A stretch of 64,000 nt of DNA from the NCBI RefSeq assembly GCF_947503125.1, contig NZ_CANNCR010000014.1, positions 1 to 64,000 of the forward strand, in the 5' to 3' direction. Positions within the stretch are counted from its first letter, which is position 1; each line of letters starts with the position of its first letter. The notes beneath the pieces are model-generated. The model did no database searches, was not told where the DNA came from, and worked only from the letters and a program-made list of their open reading frames with translations. Made by a program: the position numbers and the translations under genes. Shown piece by piece: positions 47,922 through 56,960 of this stretch. Source of the DNA: an uncultured Metabacillus sp. Lineage in GTDB: Bacteria; Bacillota; Bacilli; Bacillales; Bacillaceae.

Positions 47922-48800
47922 ATGACGAAGAAAATAGGTATGAGAATTCCACCAAAAATTGGTGCTGACGGAATTGAATCCGTAGCAAAGTGGGCTTCTA
48001 GCATTGGCATTGATGTCATTGATGTTCCTTATTATAACGAAGAAGTGAAAGCGGTCCTTGAGGCAAACGGACTTGAAGTAGGTTCGATTGATGGTGTTGG
48101 AGCTGTTGGACAAACGAAGCTTTTAAGTAAAGATGAGGCTGCACGGACAGAAGCTGTGGAAGCGCTTAAAAACCAAATAACAGAAATCTCTCGTCTAGGC
48201 GGGAAAGTGATGTTTATATGTCTTGTTCCTGAGGATATCACGATGTCACGCAAAGATGCTTTTGAAATTTGGAAAGAAACGTTTCCTAGTATTGTCGAAC
48301 ATGCAGAACAAGAAGGGATTTATCTTGCATTAGAAGGTTGGCCGGGACCAGCGCCATACTATCCAACTTTGGGCAGTACACCTGAAATGTTAAGAGCCAT
48401 GTTTGATGCGATCCCTTCGAGACATTTTGGGATTAACTATGACCCATCACATTTAGTTAGACTTGGGATTGATTATCTAAGAGTCATGAGTGATTTTGGC
48501 GACAGAATTAATTACTGTCATGGCAAAGACACCGAAATTTTATTTGATGAGCAATATGAATGCGGTAACATTGCTGCCACCTTTGGCGTTCACTATGATT
48601 TTTCAGAAGGGCCTTGGAGATATACAATTCCGGGACAAGGGGATGTTAATTGGGCGAAAGTAGCTGTTCGTTTGGAAAAGATCGGTTATGAAGGACCAAT
48701 TAGTATTGAATTGGAAGATCATCGTTATTGGGGCTCTATGGAGAAGGAACAGCAAGGAATTATAAAAGCTAAAGAACATCTTGAAATTTACTTTAAATAA
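47922..48800 (+). CDS. Sugar phosphate isomerase/epimerase, TIM-barrel, of island 2
   Basis: This 292-residue AP-endonuclease-2-fold protein has candidate metal ligands in LALEGWPGPAPYYP near residue 135, FGINYDPSHLVRLG near 168, NYCHGKDTEIL near 197 and ISIELEDHRYWG near 265. The HxKDTE and EDHRYW segments resemble isomerases and keto-sugar lyases of this fold. It sits between the importer and three oxidoreductases. It may act on the 3-keto sugar they produce, but this is inferred from context. AGGAGG precedes ATG 47922. Confidence 0.86.
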   Translation: MTKKIGMRIPPKIGADGIESVAKWASSIGIDVIDVPYYNEEVKAVLEANGLEVGSIDGVGAVGQTKLLSKDEAARTEAVEALKNQITEISRLGGKVMFICLVPEDITMSRKDAFEIWKETFPSIVEHAEQEGIYLALEGWPGPAPYYPTLGSTPEMLRAMFDAIPSRHFGINYDPSHLVRLGIDYLRVMSDFGDRINYCHGKDTEILFDEQYECGNIAATFGVHYDFSEGPWRYTIPGQGDVNWAKVAVRLEKIGYEGPISIELEDHRYWGSMEKEQQGIIKAKEHLEIYFK

Positions 48801-48822
48801 AGAAATCTAGGAGGAAATGAAA

Positions 48823-49929
48823 ATGACAAGAACAGTAAAGGTAGCCATTATCGGGTGTGGAGGAATCGCAAACGGTAAGCATATGCCAAGCTTATCAAAA
48901 TTAAAACATGTTCAACTAGTAGCATTCTGTGACATTTTAGTAGAAAGAGCAGAAAAAGCGGCGGCTGAATACGGTACACCAGATGCAAAGGTATATGACG
49001 ATTACCGCGATCTTCTTCAAGATAAAACAATTGAGGTAGTGCATGTCCTTACGCCAAATGATTCCCATGCAGAAATTTCAGTAGCGGCGCTTGATTCAGG
49101 GAAGCATGTAATGTGTGAAAAGCCAATGGCAAAAACATCTGCTGAAGCAAAAGCAATGCTAGAGGCTGCAAAACGTTCTGGTAAAAAGCTGACAATCGGT
49201 TATAACAATCGCTTCCGTCCAGATAGCCAGCATTTACATAAAGTATGTGAACGCGGAGATTTAGGTGAAATTTATTATGCGAAGGCACATGCGATTCGCC
49301 GCCGTGCAGTTCCGACATGGGGCGTATTCTTAGATGAAGAAAAACAAGGCGGTGGACCATTGATTGATATTGGTACACATGCACTTGATTTAACCTTGTG
49401 GATGATGAATAACTATAAGCCTAAATCTGTTATGGGTTCGACATACCATAAATTAAGCCAAAAGAAAAATGCAGCAAATGCATGGGGACCGTGGGATCCT
49501 GAAAAGTTTACTGTTGAAGATTCTGCATTTGGCTTTATCACAATGGAAAATGGCGCAACGATTGTGTTGGAATCAAGCTGGGCATTAAATTCTTTGGATG
49601 TGGATGAAGCAAAATGCTCACTTAGCGGAACAGAGGGTGGCGCTGATATGAAGGATGGACTGAGAATCAATGGTGAAAGCTTCGGTAAGCTTTACACGAC
49701 AAAAGTTGATCTTGGACCAGGCGGAGTGGCCTTTTACGATGGAAAGGCAGAATCAGATGCAGATTTAGAAGCCCGCCTTTGGATTGATAATATCATTCAT
49801 GACACAGAGCCTGTCGTAAAACCTGAACAAGCTTTTGTTGTTACACAAATCTTAGAAGCAATCTATGAATCTGCTAAAACAGGTAAAGCTGTTTATTTTG
49901 AAGAACAATCCTCTTTCGTTACAAATTAA
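48823..49929 (+). CDS. Gfo/Idh/MocA oxidoreductase 1 of island 2
   Basis: This 368-residue enzyme shows the Rossmann motif VAIIGCGGIANGKHMPSL near residue 6-23, the EKP lysine in MCEKPMAKTSAEAKAML near 95, GYNNRFRPDSQHLH near 125 and the catalytic IDIGTHALDLTLWMM near 180. Such enzymes oxidise or reduce C1-C3 positions of sugars with NAD(P). ATG 48823 is preferred because AGGAGG at 48809-48814 is 8 bases away, while ATG 48817 is only 2 away. It is the first of three consecutive family members. Confidence 0.9.
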   Translation: MTRTVKVAIIGCGGIANGKHMPSLSKLKHVQLVAFCDILVERAEKAAAEYGTPDAKVYDDYRDLLQDKTIEVVHVLTPNDSHAEISVAALDSGKHVMCEKPMAKTSAEAKAMLEAAKRSGKKLTIGYNNRFRPDSQHLHKVCERGDLGEIYYAKAHAIRRRAVPTWGVFLDEEKQGGGPLIDIGTHALDLTLWMMNNYKPKSVMGSTYHKLSQKKNAANAWGPWDPEKFTVEDSAFGFITMENGATIVLESSWALNSLDVDEAKCSLSGTEGGADMKDGLRINGESFGKLYTTKVDLGPGGVAFYDGKAESDADLEARLWIDNIIHDTEPVVKPEQAFVVTQILEAIYESAKTGKAVYFEEQSSFVTN

Positions 49930-49989
49930 TAAAAGTTTGTTTCGCTTCCAATCTGCATGTCGGAAAAGAATGTTAACGGGGTGATCGAG

Positions 49990-50964
49990 ATGTTAAGAAT
50001 AAGGTTAGGTATTATTGGCACAGGCGGCATTTCTCACTTGCATGTGAAACAATTAGGTGAAATCGAACATGCTGATATTGTTGCAGTAGCTGATCCGAAT
50101 GAGAACAATCGGAAGACGTTAATTGAGAAATTTCACCTTGAAGGTGTTAAAGAGTTTGATAGCCATCAAGACATGCTTGAGGATATCCCGATGGATGCGG
50201 TGTTAATTTGCTCACCGCATACCCTTCATTATCAGCATGTAGTTGATAGCATCAACCATGGTTGTCATGTTCTGATTGAAAAGCCGATGGCCTGTTCATT
50301 AAAAGAAGCAGAAGAGCTTATCGAGTTAGCGAAGGAAGCAAACAAGCTGCTCCAAGTATCCTACCAAAGACATTTTGAACCGGCTTTCCTTTATATACGC
50401 GAAGCAATTGCTAACGGCAAAATTGGCAAGCTTACATCAATCACTGCTTCTTTATATCAAGATTGGAAACATTTAACAAAGGGGACTTGGCGGCAAAATC
50501 CTTCGTTATCAGGTGGAGGTATGCTGATGGATTCAGGCAGTCATATTGTTGATGTTCTTTTATGGACGACAGGCTTAAAGGCTCTTGAAGTTGAAGCAAA
50601 AATGGAGCTGCATCAAACACCTGTCGAGCAGGATTCATTTACCGCAATCCGCTTTGAAAATAATGTAGTTGCCGGACTGAATATTATCGGAAATGCCCCA
50701 TGCTGGCATGAAACCTATGTTTTTTGTGGGGAAAATGGAGCAATTTTCTATGATAATGGGAAGATTACGCTCAGGCTTTTAGGTCAAGAAGCGATTGAAC
50801 CTGAGCTCCCAATGCAAACAACTAATTCGGATAAAAGCTTTATTGAGGCCATTTTAGGTAATCAAGAAGTAATGGTCCCAGGGGAATTTGCAAAAGAAGT
50901 CGTAACATTAACTGAAAGAATTTATCAAGCGGCAGGCTATCAACCGATCAATACTGTTAGCTGA
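49990..50964 (+). CDS. Gfo/Idh/MocA oxidoreductase 2 of island 2
   Basis: This 324-residue enzyme has LGIIGTGGISHLHVKQL near residue 6, the catalytic Lys in IEKPMACSLKEAEELIE near 97, SYQRHFEPAFLYIREA near 124 and MDSGSHIVDVLLWTTG near 179. The annotated start ATG 49990 has GGGGTG at 49978; a longer frame from 49957 lacks spacing. It is clearly diverged from its neighbours, which argues for a distinct step rather than a recent duplication. Confidence 0.88.
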   Translation: MLRIRLGIIGTGGISHLHVKQLGEIEHADIVAVADPNENNRKTLIEKFHLEGVKEFDSHQDMLEDIPMDAVLICSPHTLHYQHVVDSINHGCHVLIEKPMACSLKEAEELIELAKEANKLLQVSYQRHFEPAFLYIREAIANGKIGKLTSITASLYQDWKHLTKGTWRQNPSLSGGGMLMDSGSHIVDVLLWTTGLKALEVEAKMELHQTPVEQDSFTAIRFENNVVAGLNIIGNAPCWHETYVFCGENGAIFYDNGKITLRLLGQEAIEPELPMQTTNSDKSFIEAILGNQEVMVPGEFAKEVVTLTERIYQAAGYQPINTVS

Positions 50965-50988
50965 CCGAATAGAAAGCAGGGAAAGTAG

Positions 50989-52086
50989 ATGTCTAATACA
51001 ATCAATATCGGTATTATTGGCAGCGGTGGAATTGCCGCTGCCCATGCAAGAGCCTATAAGCAAATGCCGGATGTAAGAATTGTCGCTGTAGCCGATGTCA
51101 TTCCGGGCAAGGCAGAGCAATTTATTGAACAGCTTGAATTAATAGAAGCAAAGGGATTTGATGATCACTTAGAGCTATTAAAAATGGATATTGATGGAGT
51201 CAGTATTTGTACACCAAATGTTGCCCATCACAACACAAGCATTGATTCTCTGTTTGCTGGGAAAAACGTGCTTGTTGAAAAGCCAATGGCTGTTACCTTA
51301 GATCAAGCAATTGAGATGGTTGAAGCTTCACAAAAGTCGAATAAGATCCTTTCAGTTGGTTTTCAACCAAGGTATGATCCGAATATGCAGGCAGTAAAAG
51401 AGATTGTTCAATCTGGCCAATTAGGGAATGTTTATTATGTTCAAACCGGAGGGGGACGCCGACGCGGGATGCCAGGTGGAACATTTATTAATAAACGATT
51501 AGCAGGAGCAGGAGCTATGGCGGATATCGGTTGCTATTCACTGGATCTTGCCTTAAATGCGCTTGGCTATCCTAAGCCACTTACTGTATCAGCTTATACG
51601 TCTAACCATTTTGGAACAAATCCGCTCTATCATCCTGAAGCGAATAAGTTTGAGGTAGAAGATTTTGGAGTGGCGATGGTCCGATTAGAAGGCGGCATCG
51701 TGTTGAATTTCAAAATATCATGGGCAATGCATATGGACTCTCTTGGACCTACGATCTTCCTTGGAACTGACGCCGGCTTAAAACTAACTCCTGCAGGCAG
51801 CGGTCCTTGGAGCGGTGTATGGGATGGGGGAATCGGTTCAATCAGCCTATTCCATGATATAAAAGGCCATCATGCTGAATCAACGATTCCTGTACAAAAT
51901 CATCAGCTAAATATTTTCTATGAAAAAGTTCGCGACTTTGTTGTGGCAATAAAGGAAGGAAAACCTGCGCCAATCCCTGGGGAACAAATTGTCATTAACC
52001 AAGCGATTATCGATGGCATCTTACGCTCATCTGAACAAGGCAGTGAGGTAAAAATTGAGATTCCTGAGTTTAGTATAAGTTCTTAA
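50989..52086 (+). CDS. Gfo/Idh/MocA oxidoreductase 3 of island 2
   Basis: This 365-residue enzyme has IGIIGSGGIAAAHARAYKQM near residue 5, VEKPMAVTLDQAIEMVE near 92, GFQPRYDPNMQAVKEIV near 119 and ADIGCYSLDLALNALGYPKP near 178, in which Cys-Tyr replaces the usual Thr-His. That change at the catalytic GTH position separates it from the other two and may mark altered chemistry. It starts 24 bases after oxidoreductase 2, and a terminator follows the gene, closing the operon. Confidence 0.88.
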   Translation: MSNTINIGIIGSGGIAAAHARAYKQMPDVRIVAVADVIPGKAEQFIEQLELIEAKGFDDHLELLKMDIDGVSICTPNVAHHNTSIDSLFAGKNVLVEKPMAVTLDQAIEMVEASQKSNKILSVGFQPRYDPNMQAVKEIVQSGQLGNVYYVQTGGGRRRGMPGGTFINKRLAGAGAMADIGCYSLDLALNALGYPKPLTVSAYTSNHFGTNPLYHPEANKFEVEDFGVAMVRLEGGIVLNFKISWAMHMDSLGPTIFLGTDAGLKLTPAGSGPWSGVWDGGIGSISLFHDIKGHHAESTIPVQNHQLNIFYEKVRDFVVAIKEGKPAPIPGEQIVINQAIIDGILRSSEQGSEVKIEIPEFSISS

Positions 52087-54017: not shown

Positions 54018-54232
54018 TGGTTTCTCCTCCTTCCTATGAGATTGATACATTATATGTCACGAGTATGACAAATATGTCGTTAAAGTAAATATAGGAAAAA
54101 TATTAAATTGAAGGATAGTCCAGAAAATACCATCTTTAAAAATCACAATTTTCTCCAAAGACGTGGGAAGATCATTTTTTTATTGAATCAGCTTGTTAAA
54201 CCTGTTAGTATAATATCAAAATAATATTTTTA

Positions 54233-54263
54233 CCTTTAATACGGTCCAGAGAGGCCGAAAAGG
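54233..54263 (+). promoter_or_regulatory. PyrR-binding RNA hairpin, site 1
   Basis: The RNA can fold with CCTTT/AAAGG outer and CGG/CCG inner stems around the loop TCCAGAGAGG, the conserved PyrR-binding loop of pyr operon leaders. AAAAGGG at 54258-54264 is exactly complementary to CCCTTTT at 54310-54316 in the terminator. Binding of PyrR-UMP would therefore block the antiterminator and allow termination. Confidence 0.85.
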
Positions 54264-54306
54264 GTGGCAAGTGAAAACTAATTTATGGATTCATGTATGT
54301 CTTATT

Positions 54307-54342
54307 ATGCCCTTTTGTCCTCTGTGACCAAAGGGCATTTTT
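54307..54342 (+). terminator. PyrR-controlled attenuator
   Basis: ATGCCCTTT (54307-54315) and AAAGGGCAT (54330-54338) form a perfect 9-bp stem followed by five T. Its 5' arm overlaps the predicted pairing partner of the PyrR hairpin, as in known pyr attenuators. Confidence 0.88.
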
Positions 54343-54360
54343 AAGTTTATTAATAAGTAC

Positions 54361-54396
54361 CTCTTTTAATCAGAGTCCCGTGAGGCTTGAAAAGAG
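54361..54396 (+). promoter_or_regulatory. PyrR-binding RNA hairpin, site 2
   Basis: CTCTTTT and AAAAGAG close a stem carrying the loop AGTCCCGTGAGGCT, the other classical PyrR loop sequence. A small GAATGGA/TCCATTC hairpin follows at 54396-54420 without a T-run. The site may act on translation or be a relic of a second attenuator. Confidence 0.8.
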
Positions 54397-54471
54397 AATG
54401 GATGAATTCAAACTCCATTCCTTCAAAGTAAAAAGAGATATGACAAGATCACAACGGAGGGTGGAACTACA

Positions 54472-55686
54472 ATGAATTATCGTAAAAAAACAGTCGTTGC
54501 ATCTGTAGCAGGTTTAACATTGGAAGGCATGGACATCATGTTTATCTCATTTGCGATGTCAATGATTATATCCGAATTTAACATTGATTTAGCTACTGGC
54601 GGTCTTATTTCTTCCATAACAAATATTGGAATGCTAATTGGTGGTGTATTATTCGGAATTTTAGCTGATAAATTTGGGAGAGTACGAATTTTCACTTATA
54701 CTATTATTTTGTTTGCAATTGGAACAGCCTTAACTGGACTAGCTACAAATATTGAACAGGTTTACTTATATCGATTCATTGCCGGCTTAGGTGCTGGTGG
54801 AGAATATGGCATCGGGATGGCGCTTGTTGCAGAGGCGTGGCCAAAGAATAAACAAGGAAGAGTTTCTTCATATGTAAGTGTCGGTGCACAATATGGCGTT
54901 ATTCTTGCAGCCTTGCTTAGTGCGATGATTCTTCCTTTATTCGGTTGGCGAGCATTATTCTTTGTTGGTGTCCTACCCGTCATTTTTGCTTATCTTGTAC
55001 GCAAAAACTTAGATGAATCACCGGAATGGGTAGCTGCTCAAAAAGAAAAGAAAGTTGAAAGCAAAAAAGAGAAAGGTAAACTGCTGCAGTTATTTGAAAC
55101 ACCAAGAATTGCTTTTACAACATTATCTTTAGCGATTATGGCAACTGTGCAGATCGCAGGTTACAATGGATTGATGATCTGGCTGCCATCCATGCTGCAA
55201 CAATCACAAGGATTGTCGGTTTCCGGTTCAGCGCTTTGGACAATCAGTACAGCTGTTGGAATGATTATCGGAATGCTGACCTTTGGACAATTTATGGATC
55301 GATTTGGTGCAAAACGGTCATACGGAATATTTCTTCTTGCTTCAGCATCAGCAGTATTTTTATATTCGTTTGCTGAAGGAAGTGCAGGTGTCTTAATCGG
55401 CGGTGCGATCGTTGGCTTCTTCTCTAACGGAATGTTTGCTGGATATGGTGCATTAATCAGCAGTTTTTATCCTGTTAAAATTCGCAGCACCGCAACGAAT
55501 ACAATTTTTAATTTTGGTAGAGCCGTTGGCGGCCTTTCGCCAATTCTTGTCGGATATATTTTGCAAAGCTATGATATGACAATCGCCATGACTTATTTAG
55601 CAGCATTATACTGCGTATCCTTTATTGTAATGCTAAGTCTTAAAGAAAAGAACAAGCATGCTTCTTTAGAAAAACGTTCAGCTTAA
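54472..55686 (+). CDS. MFS transporter under PyrR control, candidate pyrimidine-related transporter
   Basis: This 404-residue major facilitator protein has 12 predicted helices. The loop 2-3 motif reads ILADKFGRVRIF near residue 63, and RFIAGLGAGGEYGIGMALVAEAWP near 105 resembles the aromatic-acid/H+ symporter and sialate-type branches. The substrate cannot be read from the protein, but the PyrR leader upstream indicates repression when UMP is high, so a pyrimidine precursor such as orotate, or uracil or a nucleoside, is the leading candidate. GGAGGGTGG precedes ATG 54472. A perfect terminator follows, so it is monocistronic. Confidence 0.88.
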   Translation: MNYRKKTVVASVAGLTLEGMDIMFISFAMSMIISEFNIDLATGGLISSITNIGMLIGGVLFGILADKFGRVRIFTYTIILFAIGTALTGLATNIEQVYLYRFIAGLGAGGEYGIGMALVAEAWPKNKQGRVSSYVSVGAQYGVILAALLSAMILPLFGWRALFFVGVLPVIFAYLVRKNLDESPEWVAAQKEKKVESKKEKGKLLQLFETPRIAFTTLSLAIMATVQIAGYNGLMIWLPSMLQQSQGLSVSGSALWTISTAVGMIIGMLTFGQFMDRFGAKRSYGIFLLASASAVFLYSFAEGSAGVLIGGAIVGFFSNGMFAGYGALISSFYPVKIRSTATNTIFNFGRAVGGLSPILVGYILQSYDMTIAMTYLAALYCVSFIVMLSLKEKNKHASLEKRSA

Positions 55687-56453: not shown

Positions 56454-56960
56454 GTGAAAATCATTTATCTTGTAAGACATTGTGAAGCTAATGGGCAGGA
56501 AGCCGATGCAGACCTTACAGTCCGCGGTTTTAATCAAGCAATTGAACTATCTAACTTTTTCTCTGATTTCACGGTTGAGCGGATTATTTCGAGTCCATAT
56601 AAGCGTGCGATGAAAACTGTTCAGCCGCTTGCTAAGCGATTAAAGATAGAAATTGAGAGTAATAGTAATTTGTCAGAACGTATTTTAAGCACGAGTAATC
56701 TTCCAGATTGGTATGATTTATATTTCTATTCGATGTGGGATTGGGATGCATGGAAGGATGCAGGCGGAGGAAAACAAGCGTATTCTTTTTTACCTTTTGT
56801 ATTTGCAGCTTACTTTGTAACCGTTGGATGTATTTATTCATCGAAGCTGCACTTTTTCGGAATCCTGTTTGGCCCAGTCTGGCTTCCGATGTTGAGTTTG
56901 ATACCAGGCTTAGTGATTGGATTTATTATAATGAAATATTTAGTGAAAAAGAAAACTTAA
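56454..56960 (+). pseudogene. Chimeric ORF: histidine phosphatase N-terminus fused to a membrane-protein C-terminus
   Basis: Residues 1 to about 88 are a histidine phosphatase: LVRHCEANG with catalytic R8-H9, ADLTVRGFNQA near 25 and ERIISSPYKRAMKTVQPLA near 42-60. After SNLPDW the sequence changes to WDWDAWKDAGGGKQAYSFLP and then three hydrophobic helices ending IGFIIMKYLVKKKT. The second half of the phosphatase, with its catalytic His and C-terminal strands, is absent. An in-frame deletion appears to have joined two genes. A ribosome site and ATG remain, so a protein may be made, but phosphatase activity is unlikely. Confidence 0.72.

Follow-up and report, generated by a model that had tools for sequence, protein, structure and literature searches.

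Relation to described systems

In the pyr leaders of Bacillus subtilis, PyrR together with uridine monophosphate (UMP) holds an anti-antiterminator, and a terminator then forms (available part of PMC7430163). The 64,000-nucleotide stretch of Metabacillus DNA analysed here, called the window, carries a leader of this type in front of a gene for a transporter of the major facilitator superfamily (MFS). As in the B. subtilis attenuators (Rfam family RF00515), a predicted PyrR hairpin (P1), an antiterminator and a terminator are found in the classical layout, with a score above the Rfam cut-off. The differences are that the target is a lone MFS gene, and that a second predicted PyrR hairpin (P2) lies past the terminator.

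Fields and Switzer reportedly described in 2007 that PyrR represses pyr genes at translation in Mycobacterium smegmatis, an actinobacterium in which translation is said to be the sole level of PyrR action. The translational action proposed below is similar, except that in the window gene it would supplement attenuation, in Bacilli, and on a transporter. The TRAP protein of B. subtilis acts on both transcription attenuation and ribosome access, in the trp operon and trpP (available part of PMC4347634). It is thus one RNA-binding sensor working at both levels, with a transporter gene among its targets, but protein and RNA signal are different and common descent is not implied.

Orotate uptake, the function proposed here, has been described for OroP of Lactococcus lactis (TC 2.A.7.21.4; available part of PMC12802215, which gives 5-fluoroorotate sensitivity at about 20-50 ug/ml for OroP) and for the C4-dicarboxylate transporter DctA of enterobacteria (available part of PMC13328217). 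As described, both differ from the window protein, which is an MFS protein. In the open-licence literature, as far as the sources were available, neither an orotate transporter of the MFS type nor control of translation by PyrR in Bacilli was found, and the gene may be listed under PyrR in the supplementary tables of PMC3766115 or in RegPrecise. The available part of PMC4342826 lists an S-adenosylmethionine (SAM) riboswitch together with a PyrR motif upstream of an MFS gene in Bacillus methanolicus. No MFS gene is mentioned in the available parts of PMC10886434 and PMC10609543.

Judging from sequence comparison, we propose, with a probability of roughly 0.64, that the gene encodes an orotate importer under PyrR control of both transcription and translation. 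What would be new is the two-level arrangement of a known sensor and a known RNA motif, on a carrier of previously unassigned substrate; it is taken as new because the literature consulted gave neither PyrR translational control in Bacilli nor an MFS orotate importer. If the proposal is true, it suggests a substrate for a large carrier group whose named records say only 'MFS transporter', brings MFS proteins into the set of orotate importers, explains how bacteria that have lost orotate synthesis can live on orotate, and reveals for PyrR in Bacilli a mode of action beside attenuation.

A predicted PyrR attenuator

Positions 54229-54344 of the window belong to the PyrR leader family RF00515, with 57.3 bits against a gathering cut-off of 54, and this is the sole match above any gathering score in an Rfam scan of the whole window. 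P1 has a lower stem CCUUU/AAAGG, an internal bulge on the 5' side, an upper stem CGGUC/GGCCG and the hexaloop CAGAGA (54247-54252). The terminator has the arms AUGCCCUUU/AAAGGGCAU with a T run behind them. As stated in the initial annotation, the 3' strand of P1, AAAAGGG (54258-54264), has an exact complement, CCCUUUU (54310-54316), in the 5' arm of the terminator. At minimum energy (-35.1 kcal/mol), 54229-54350 folds into the long antiterminator, and antiterminator and terminator exclude each other at P1, as in a PyrR attenuator. A good -35 box at normal spacing from the candidate -10 box (Table 1) was looked for in the sequence and none was seen.

In the 5.4 Mb genome from which the window comes, the top five RF00515 matches are three leaders of the pyr operon, P1 and P2. 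The pyr leaders (59.2, 57.5 and 51.3 bits, contig C1) precede pyrR, pyrP and pyrB. The genome also has the PyrR gene needed for a PyrR regulon (NF003549, 272 bits against a cut-off of 138).

The earlier claim of a PyrR leader with attenuator before a lone MFS gene is therefore confirmed, by the RF00515 score and by the antiterminator/terminator pair. It had further been said that two classical PyrR loops flank the attenuator. There are indeed two hairpins, and P1 is part of the attenuator, but the loop of P2 is the variant CCGUGA, and P2 sits past the terminator without forming part of an attenuator.

Conservation of the leader in Bacillales

Relatives were found by a protein scan, and the best 80 of 110, 77-95% identical, were analysed. 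They come from Bacillus-like genera, Lysinibacillus, Sporosarcina, Kurthia, Virgibacillus, Oceanobacillus and Paenibacillus. In a survey of PyrR leaders before homologous MFS genes, as suggested in the initial annotation, RF00515 is above its cut-off before the MFS gene in 64 of the 80 (18, 16, 15 and 15 per 20 loci), and within these loci the matches are always upstream of that gene and nowhere else. A plasmid of Niallia taxi also carries the double leader.

A narrow loop motif was found in the 600 nucleotides (nt) upstream in at least two copies in 64 of the 80, in one copy in 15 and not at all in 1, so that chance does not account for the paired sites. This motif missed loop variants, and a wider pattern was therefore adopted. 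With it, the window and every one of the 78 loci examined have a second site at most 160 nt from the start codon; L025 (an insert) and L037 (no start codon at the match) were left out of this and of the forced-hairpin analysis described below. With L037, whose site is at -81, the count is 79 of the 80 relatives. The exception is L025, where the second site is at -421 and two matches to the Bacillaceae-1 RNA lie between site and gene.

These Bacillaceae-1 elements (RF01690) occur at different places within the leaders. The two in L025 (2745-2920) lie between P2 and the gene, while one in L061 (2700-2767) lies between P1 and P2. In L037, around position 1231, the protein match starts at residue 2, the preceding codon is GGA, and a normal start codon is absent at the expected place.

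P2 and a predicted switch at the ribosome site

P2 consists of a stem CUCUUUU/AAAAGAG and a loop GUC-CCGUGA-GGC, with the hexaloop CCGUGA at 54378-54383. Its RF00515 match (E 0.03) ranks fifth in the genome. The CCGUGA variant is also found in RF00515-matched leaders of other genomes (L224, L225, L227, L234). P2 was considered as a second intrinsic attenuator, and this was rejected: it is followed by a GAATGGA/TCCATTC hairpin and then by CTTCAAAGTAAAAAG, with no U run.

Two designs can be recognised among the 79 sequences (the window and 78 loci). In 25 Neobacillus-like loci (Neobacillus, Heyndrickxia and kin) the loop motif starts 29-32 nt before the start codon and P2 ends in GAAAGGAGA or a near form, so that its 3' arm is the Shine-Dalgarno sequence; on average 5.96 of the 7 Shine-Dalgarno bases are inside the P2 stem. 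In the other 54 sequences, the window among them, the loop lies 85-135 nt upstream; next comes, with few variants, a GAATGGA strand (the decoy), which pairs with TCCATTC. In the window's type, the TCCATTC strand is also complementary to the ribosome binding site (RBS) GGAGGGTGGA, and in the Lysinibacillus and Paenibacillus types to GAATGGATTA around the start codon. The longer element that contains this strand, TCCATTCCTTC in the window, is called the anti-RBS.

The fit of anti-RBS to RBS was analysed in 53 loci; L062, which has no CATTC element, was left out here and in the switch test. The duplex with the own RBS region has a mean energy of -14.1 kcal/mol, against -8.6 for shuffled sequences, the own value being lower in 53 of 53. 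When anti-RBS elements are swapped between loci, the mean is -12.9 kcal/mol, and none of 10000 permutations reached the own mean, although relatedness is not removed from this comparison. Windows of 40 nt from the gene equal the RBS as a partner in a median of 3.7% of cases; this background is at most 5% in 41 of the 53 loci and higher in 12.

Folding predictions indicate a switch. With the 5' arm of P2 blocked, the anti-RBS of the window is paired to the decoy with 0.97 and to the RBS with 0.02, whereas with P2 forced the values are 0.00 and 0.84. Across the 53 loci, forcing P2 raises RBS pairing in 33 and lowers it in 1, while decoy pairing is lost in 33 and gained in 2. Beside this pairing test, Shine-Dalgarno access under forced P2 was used as a cruder measure. 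Access is lower in 25 of the 54 window-type sequences and higher in none; it is lower in 25 of 25 in the Neobacillus-like group, as must be the case given the overlap. By this method P2 of L023 has no stem, and that of L022 five pairs only. In these models, the second site looks like a translational operator, placed before or on the ribosome binding site.

Table 1. Features of the transporter gene and its leader (window positions)
Feature	Position	Strand	Basis
Candidate -10 box TATAAT of a putative leader promoter	54209..54214	+	Read from sequence
P1, predicted PyrR-binding hairpin / anti-antiterminator	54233..54263	+	RF00515, 57.3 bits
Intrinsic terminator; 5' arm and loop pair alternatively with P1 as antiterminator	54307..54342	+	Sequence, minimum-energy fold
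P2, predicted second PyrR-binding hairpin, without terminator	54361..54396	+	RF00515, 32.2 bits; conservation
Decoy GAATGGA (anti-anti-RBS), one G common to P2 stem	54396..54402	+	Pairs with 54414-54420
Anti-RBS element TCCATTCCTTC, alternative partners decoy or RBS	54414..54424	+	Duplex with own RBS, -13.0 kcal/mol
Shine-Dalgarno region GGAGGGTGGA	54456..54465	+	Sequence; complementary to 54414-54424
MFS transporter, 404 residues, proposed orotate importer	54472..55686	+	Pfam MFS_1, TIGR00895

A Shine-Dalgarno hairpin in distant homologues

Searching 398 genomes of the class yielded 45 matches (E up to 1e-60, many with 42-59% identity). Ninety loci were read, 20 from this search and 70 from one family, whose nearest named relatives on plasmids are Limosilactobacillus and Latilactobacillus. 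The homologues with the hairpin described next, mostly of this family, are about 43-51% identical. L150 and L151 duplicate L132 and L130, and both places are counted twice among the 90. A hairpin was scored if it lay at most 75 nt from the start codon and had at least 4 pairs and a hexaloop CN(G/C)NGA. Of the 90 loci, 64 have such a hairpin; the large family contributes 60 of these, out of its 70 loci. For comparison, among 4825 windows of 75 nt taken from the 70 loci, 73 contain one, true sites included. It was also seen by eye in records of Limosilactobacillus fermentum, L. reuteri and Latilactobacillus curvatus, where the gene is annotated only as 'MFS transporter'.

Alignment of the 54 distinct hairpins gives 92.3% paired cells, a figure that is biased because the hairpins were chosen for pairing. 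The variety of pairs is unbiased: 76 cells are changed on both sides, against 18.9 after shuffling. The covariation is 0.410 against 0.146 for shuffled alignments (reached in 0 of 500), and falls to 0.034-0.099 when the frame is slid. The lower stem touches GGAGG. In its loop and in the A-rich bulge on the 5' side, the hairpin is similar to the canonical ones of the same lineages. However, the canonical loop is closed by a C-G pair that is frequently substituted here, and for this reason we only infer that PyrR binds the hairpin of the distant family.

In the large family this hairpin nearly always stands alone, since the canonical motif is found within 600 nt upstream in only one of the 70 loci (L205). 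Among 40 loci scanned with RF00515, only L205 is above the cut-off before the transporter (57.8 bits), and in L207 a match of 58.3 bits precedes pyrF on the opposite strand; L144-L148 and L150-L179 were left out of the RF00515 scans. L143 (genome G210) and L140 (G371), of another family, combine a weak leader (48.8 and 46.0 bits, both below the cut-off) with a hairpin before the start codon, that of L140 having been seen by eye (L236).

PyrR (NF003549) was detected in all 70 genomes of the large-family loci. It is broken in four of them only (G451, G489, G520 and G547, of one genus), where an internal stop leaves a best piece of 99-132 bits and the cut-off of 138 is reached only by summing pieces; PyrR of G510 has a stop too, yet scores 236 bits. 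The loci of the four genomes (L184, L181, L180 and L188) are all without the hairpin. This supports a link between hairpin and PyrR without proving it, because a single event in one genus is involved and the completeness of two of the four genomes is only 85%. The script found no hairpin in six further loci of the family; near variants were recognised by eye in L170 and L187, but not in L202, L215, L217 and L218. Two of the genomes with decayed PyrR, G451 and G547, also lack PyrB and PyrC.

The transporter protein

The protein is a member of the major facilitator superfamily (Pfam MFS_1, 183 bits, cut-off 33.4). The best curated model is TIGR00895, aromatic acid/H+ symporters, with 286.8 bits, which is below its curated cut-off of 418.55. 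On sequence grounds the protein is therefore filed only as MFS, nearest to the TIGR00895 subfamily. A uracil permease of the NCS2 type (PyrP) was ruled out, as the three Pfam matches of the protein are all to MFS families and PyrP is a separate gene. Distant PDB matches are GlcP, SV2 and SLC22 carriers. Five residues are specific to the family, namely Q140, Q227, W256, D276 and Y380: across 101 members each is conserved to at least 97%, and three paralogues of about 30% identity have other residues there.

Gene neighbours and the likely substrate

The Pyr proteins of the window's genome were used as probes in the flanks of the 90 loci (at most 1.5-4 kb). In 30 loci, 27 among the 70 of the large family and 3 among the other 20, pyrF and/or pyrE adjoin the homologue, both of them in 28. 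These neighbours recur in four genome families (f54, f70, f71, f73). Some are co-directional rows, namely pyrF-pyrE-MFS in L138 and L148, and pyrD-pyrF-pyrE-MFS in L218.

Among genomes with homologues, 58 were picked by hand for a search for PyrB and PyrE, and 20 for PyrC and PyrD. PyrB is above its cut-off in 46 of the 58 and PyrE in 55. PyrC is found in none of the 12 PyrB-less genomes, against 8 of 8 controls, while PyrE is kept in 9 of the 12. In 7 of these 9, the transporter is beside pyrF-pyrE (L184, L156, L168, L154, L164, L188, L139); of the remaining two, the locus of G210 is not adjacent to pyrF-pyrE, and the G482 locus was not read. G547 and G293 have no match to PyrB, PyrC or the PyrD family, and have PyrF and PyrE beside the transporter; because of this combination, only orotate can enter there. 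G451 lacks PyrB and PyrC and has a partial PyrD-family match of 60.9 bits (Pfam cut-off 27), far less than the 263-336 bits in others. From their gene content, cells with these three genomes can apparently use orotate without being able to synthesise it. The earlier suggestion of a pyrimidine or orotate transporter is thus supported by the pyrF-pyrE(-pyrD) neighbours, and by genomes whose pathway is reduced to the orotate-using end, next to the transporter.

Three other genomes (G476, G485 and G501) have no PyrB, PyrC, PyrD-family or PyrE match, yet keep PyrR. G476 holds four homologues of the transporter.

In a tree of the family, the Bacillales clade of the window (14 rows) is sister to a clade of 80 rows that contains all pyrF/pyrE-linked members except L148. 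L148, and then a six-row group (L141-L147), branch off before both clades, with supports of 81 to 100. The window clade thus sits between orotate-linked branches, with orotate-linked members on both sides. The tree was made by a quick method, and long branches were flagged by the program; L150, L151 and L140 (translation too short) were omitted.

Several more basal homologues stand with PyrD. L141 and L142 have a PyrK-like protein, PyrD, a regulator with a weak AdeR match and a cyclic amidase (in the L141 cluster, PyrD and the amidase were the proteins scanned). L144 has a regulator, a carbamoylase, a PyrK-like protein and PyrD; L145 has a PyrD match only; and L146 has a carbamoylase, a dihydroorotase (TIGR00857) and a PyrD match. 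The curated name for PyrD of L141 and L144 is dihydroorotate dehydrogenase; this match and that of the L146 dihydroorotase are above cut-off. Because PyrD is present, we take these clusters to belong to reductive orotate degradation, and it is possible that L141, L142 and L144-L146 are operons for that pathway.

Proposed mechanism and alternatives

On the basis of these observations, we hypothesise that the gene product is a proton-coupled MFS importer of orotate, perhaps also of dihydroorotate, which would feed PyrE and PyrF. UMP-bound PyrR would repress the mRNA at two levels. At P1 it would hold the anti-antiterminator so that the terminator forms, as in classical attenuation. On transcripts that have read through, PyrR bound to P2 would lower translation. 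In the window group, P2 held shut would remove the decoy GAATGGA and free TCCATTCCTTC to fold onto GGAGGGTGGA, while in the Neobacillus-like group the 3' arm of P2 would itself be the masked Shine-Dalgarno sequence. P2 would thereby let PyrR silence messages that are already past the terminator. More generally, we consider it fairly probable that PyrR in Bacilli represses translation in addition to its part in attenuation. It would act through a conserved hairpin that lies on, or controls, the ribosome binding site of a widespread orotate importer of the MFS class. This hairpin stands almost always alone in one large family, and behind a classical attenuator in Bacillales, where a single sensor would thus gate the same mRNA twice.

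Some observations weigh against this proposal, and several of them favour other readings. P2 may be a spare or decayed second copy of the attenuator, or a mere booster of PyrR occupancy, with no translational action, which we regard as unlikely. P2 does resemble P1 and is placed in tandem with it. Its RF00515 score is below the cut-off, the terminator half of the model is absent, and the next genomic match (31.9 bits, contig C42) is level with it, so that the reality of P2 rests on its conservation. Shutting P2 shifts the predicted Shine-Dalgarno access by at most 0.05 in 29 of the 54 window-group sequences, and in many loci of this group the RBS is predicted to be hidden whatever the state of P2. 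Against the proposal as a whole, five distant loci (L131, L133-L136) have no PyrR hairpin though their genomes all have PyrR; the script found no start codon for L131, L134-L137 and L140, and their misses are weak. A decayed attenuator fits poorly, however, with the missing U run behind the post-P2 hairpin of the window, with the overlap of P2 and Shine-Dalgarno sequence in 25 loci, with a large distant family that has the Shine-Dalgarno hairpin in 60 of 70 loci and the canonical motif upstream in one, and with anti-RBS elements that fit their own RBS better than those of other loci. Translational action of P2 remains the preferred reading.

The substrate can be questioned separately, with PyrR control unchanged. 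In the window's clade, no conserved neighbour was found among 411 flanking open reading frames (ORFs) of the 80 loci (largest cluster 11 loci); since surrounding genes vary freely, leader and gene form the unit. The window's genome encodes PyrB, C, D, E, F and PyrP. On both counts, the substrate of the window gene is carried over from homologues of about 40-51% identity. Import mainly of another pyrimidine precursor or base (dihydroorotate, uracil, uridine or carbamoyl-aspartate) is a less likely alternative. Four genomes without PyrB and PyrC (G455, G469, G492, G493) keep PyrD and PyrE, which fits dihydroorotate too; PyrD is within about 2 kb of the transporter in G455, G492 and G493, and G210 also keeps PyrD. 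At the limit used, G476, G485 and G501 have no PyrE, yet their homologues (L205, L219, L206) carry the hairpin, so that some family members must act otherwise; and as L205 has the full RF00515 leader as well, PyrR control alone does not mean orotate. The basal clusters could also serve another ring compound or a ureide, because the amidases of L141 and L142 are named allantoinase (above cut-off, while also passing the dihydroorotase model TIGR00857) and the carbamoylases of L144 and L146 allantoate amidohydrolase (above cut-off); they would then represent an allantoin-like route instead. Against these points stand G547 and G293, where orotate is the sole entry, the best curated match, to an aromatic acid/H+ symport subfamily, which suits a planar carboxylate, and the presence of PyrP, by which uracil is already served in the window's genome. 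The same curated match, although below its cut-off, would suit an aromatic-acid or drug carrier that is under PyrR by chance, and exporters of excess pyrimidine intermediates exist in principle; we consider either very improbable, given the pyrF/pyrE neighbours in four genome families. For export of an excess, control by PyrR would also run in the wrong direction, because PyrR represses when UMP is plentiful (B. subtilis; available part of PMC7430163).

Other features of the window

An ORF at 56454-56960 looks like a deletion fusion, its first 77 residues matching half of the histidine phosphatase family and the rest being membrane-like. At 47922-52086 there is a row of genes that, from the look of the sequence, we take to be a sugar-phosphate-isomerase-like gene and three Gfo/Idh/MocA-like oxidoreductases.

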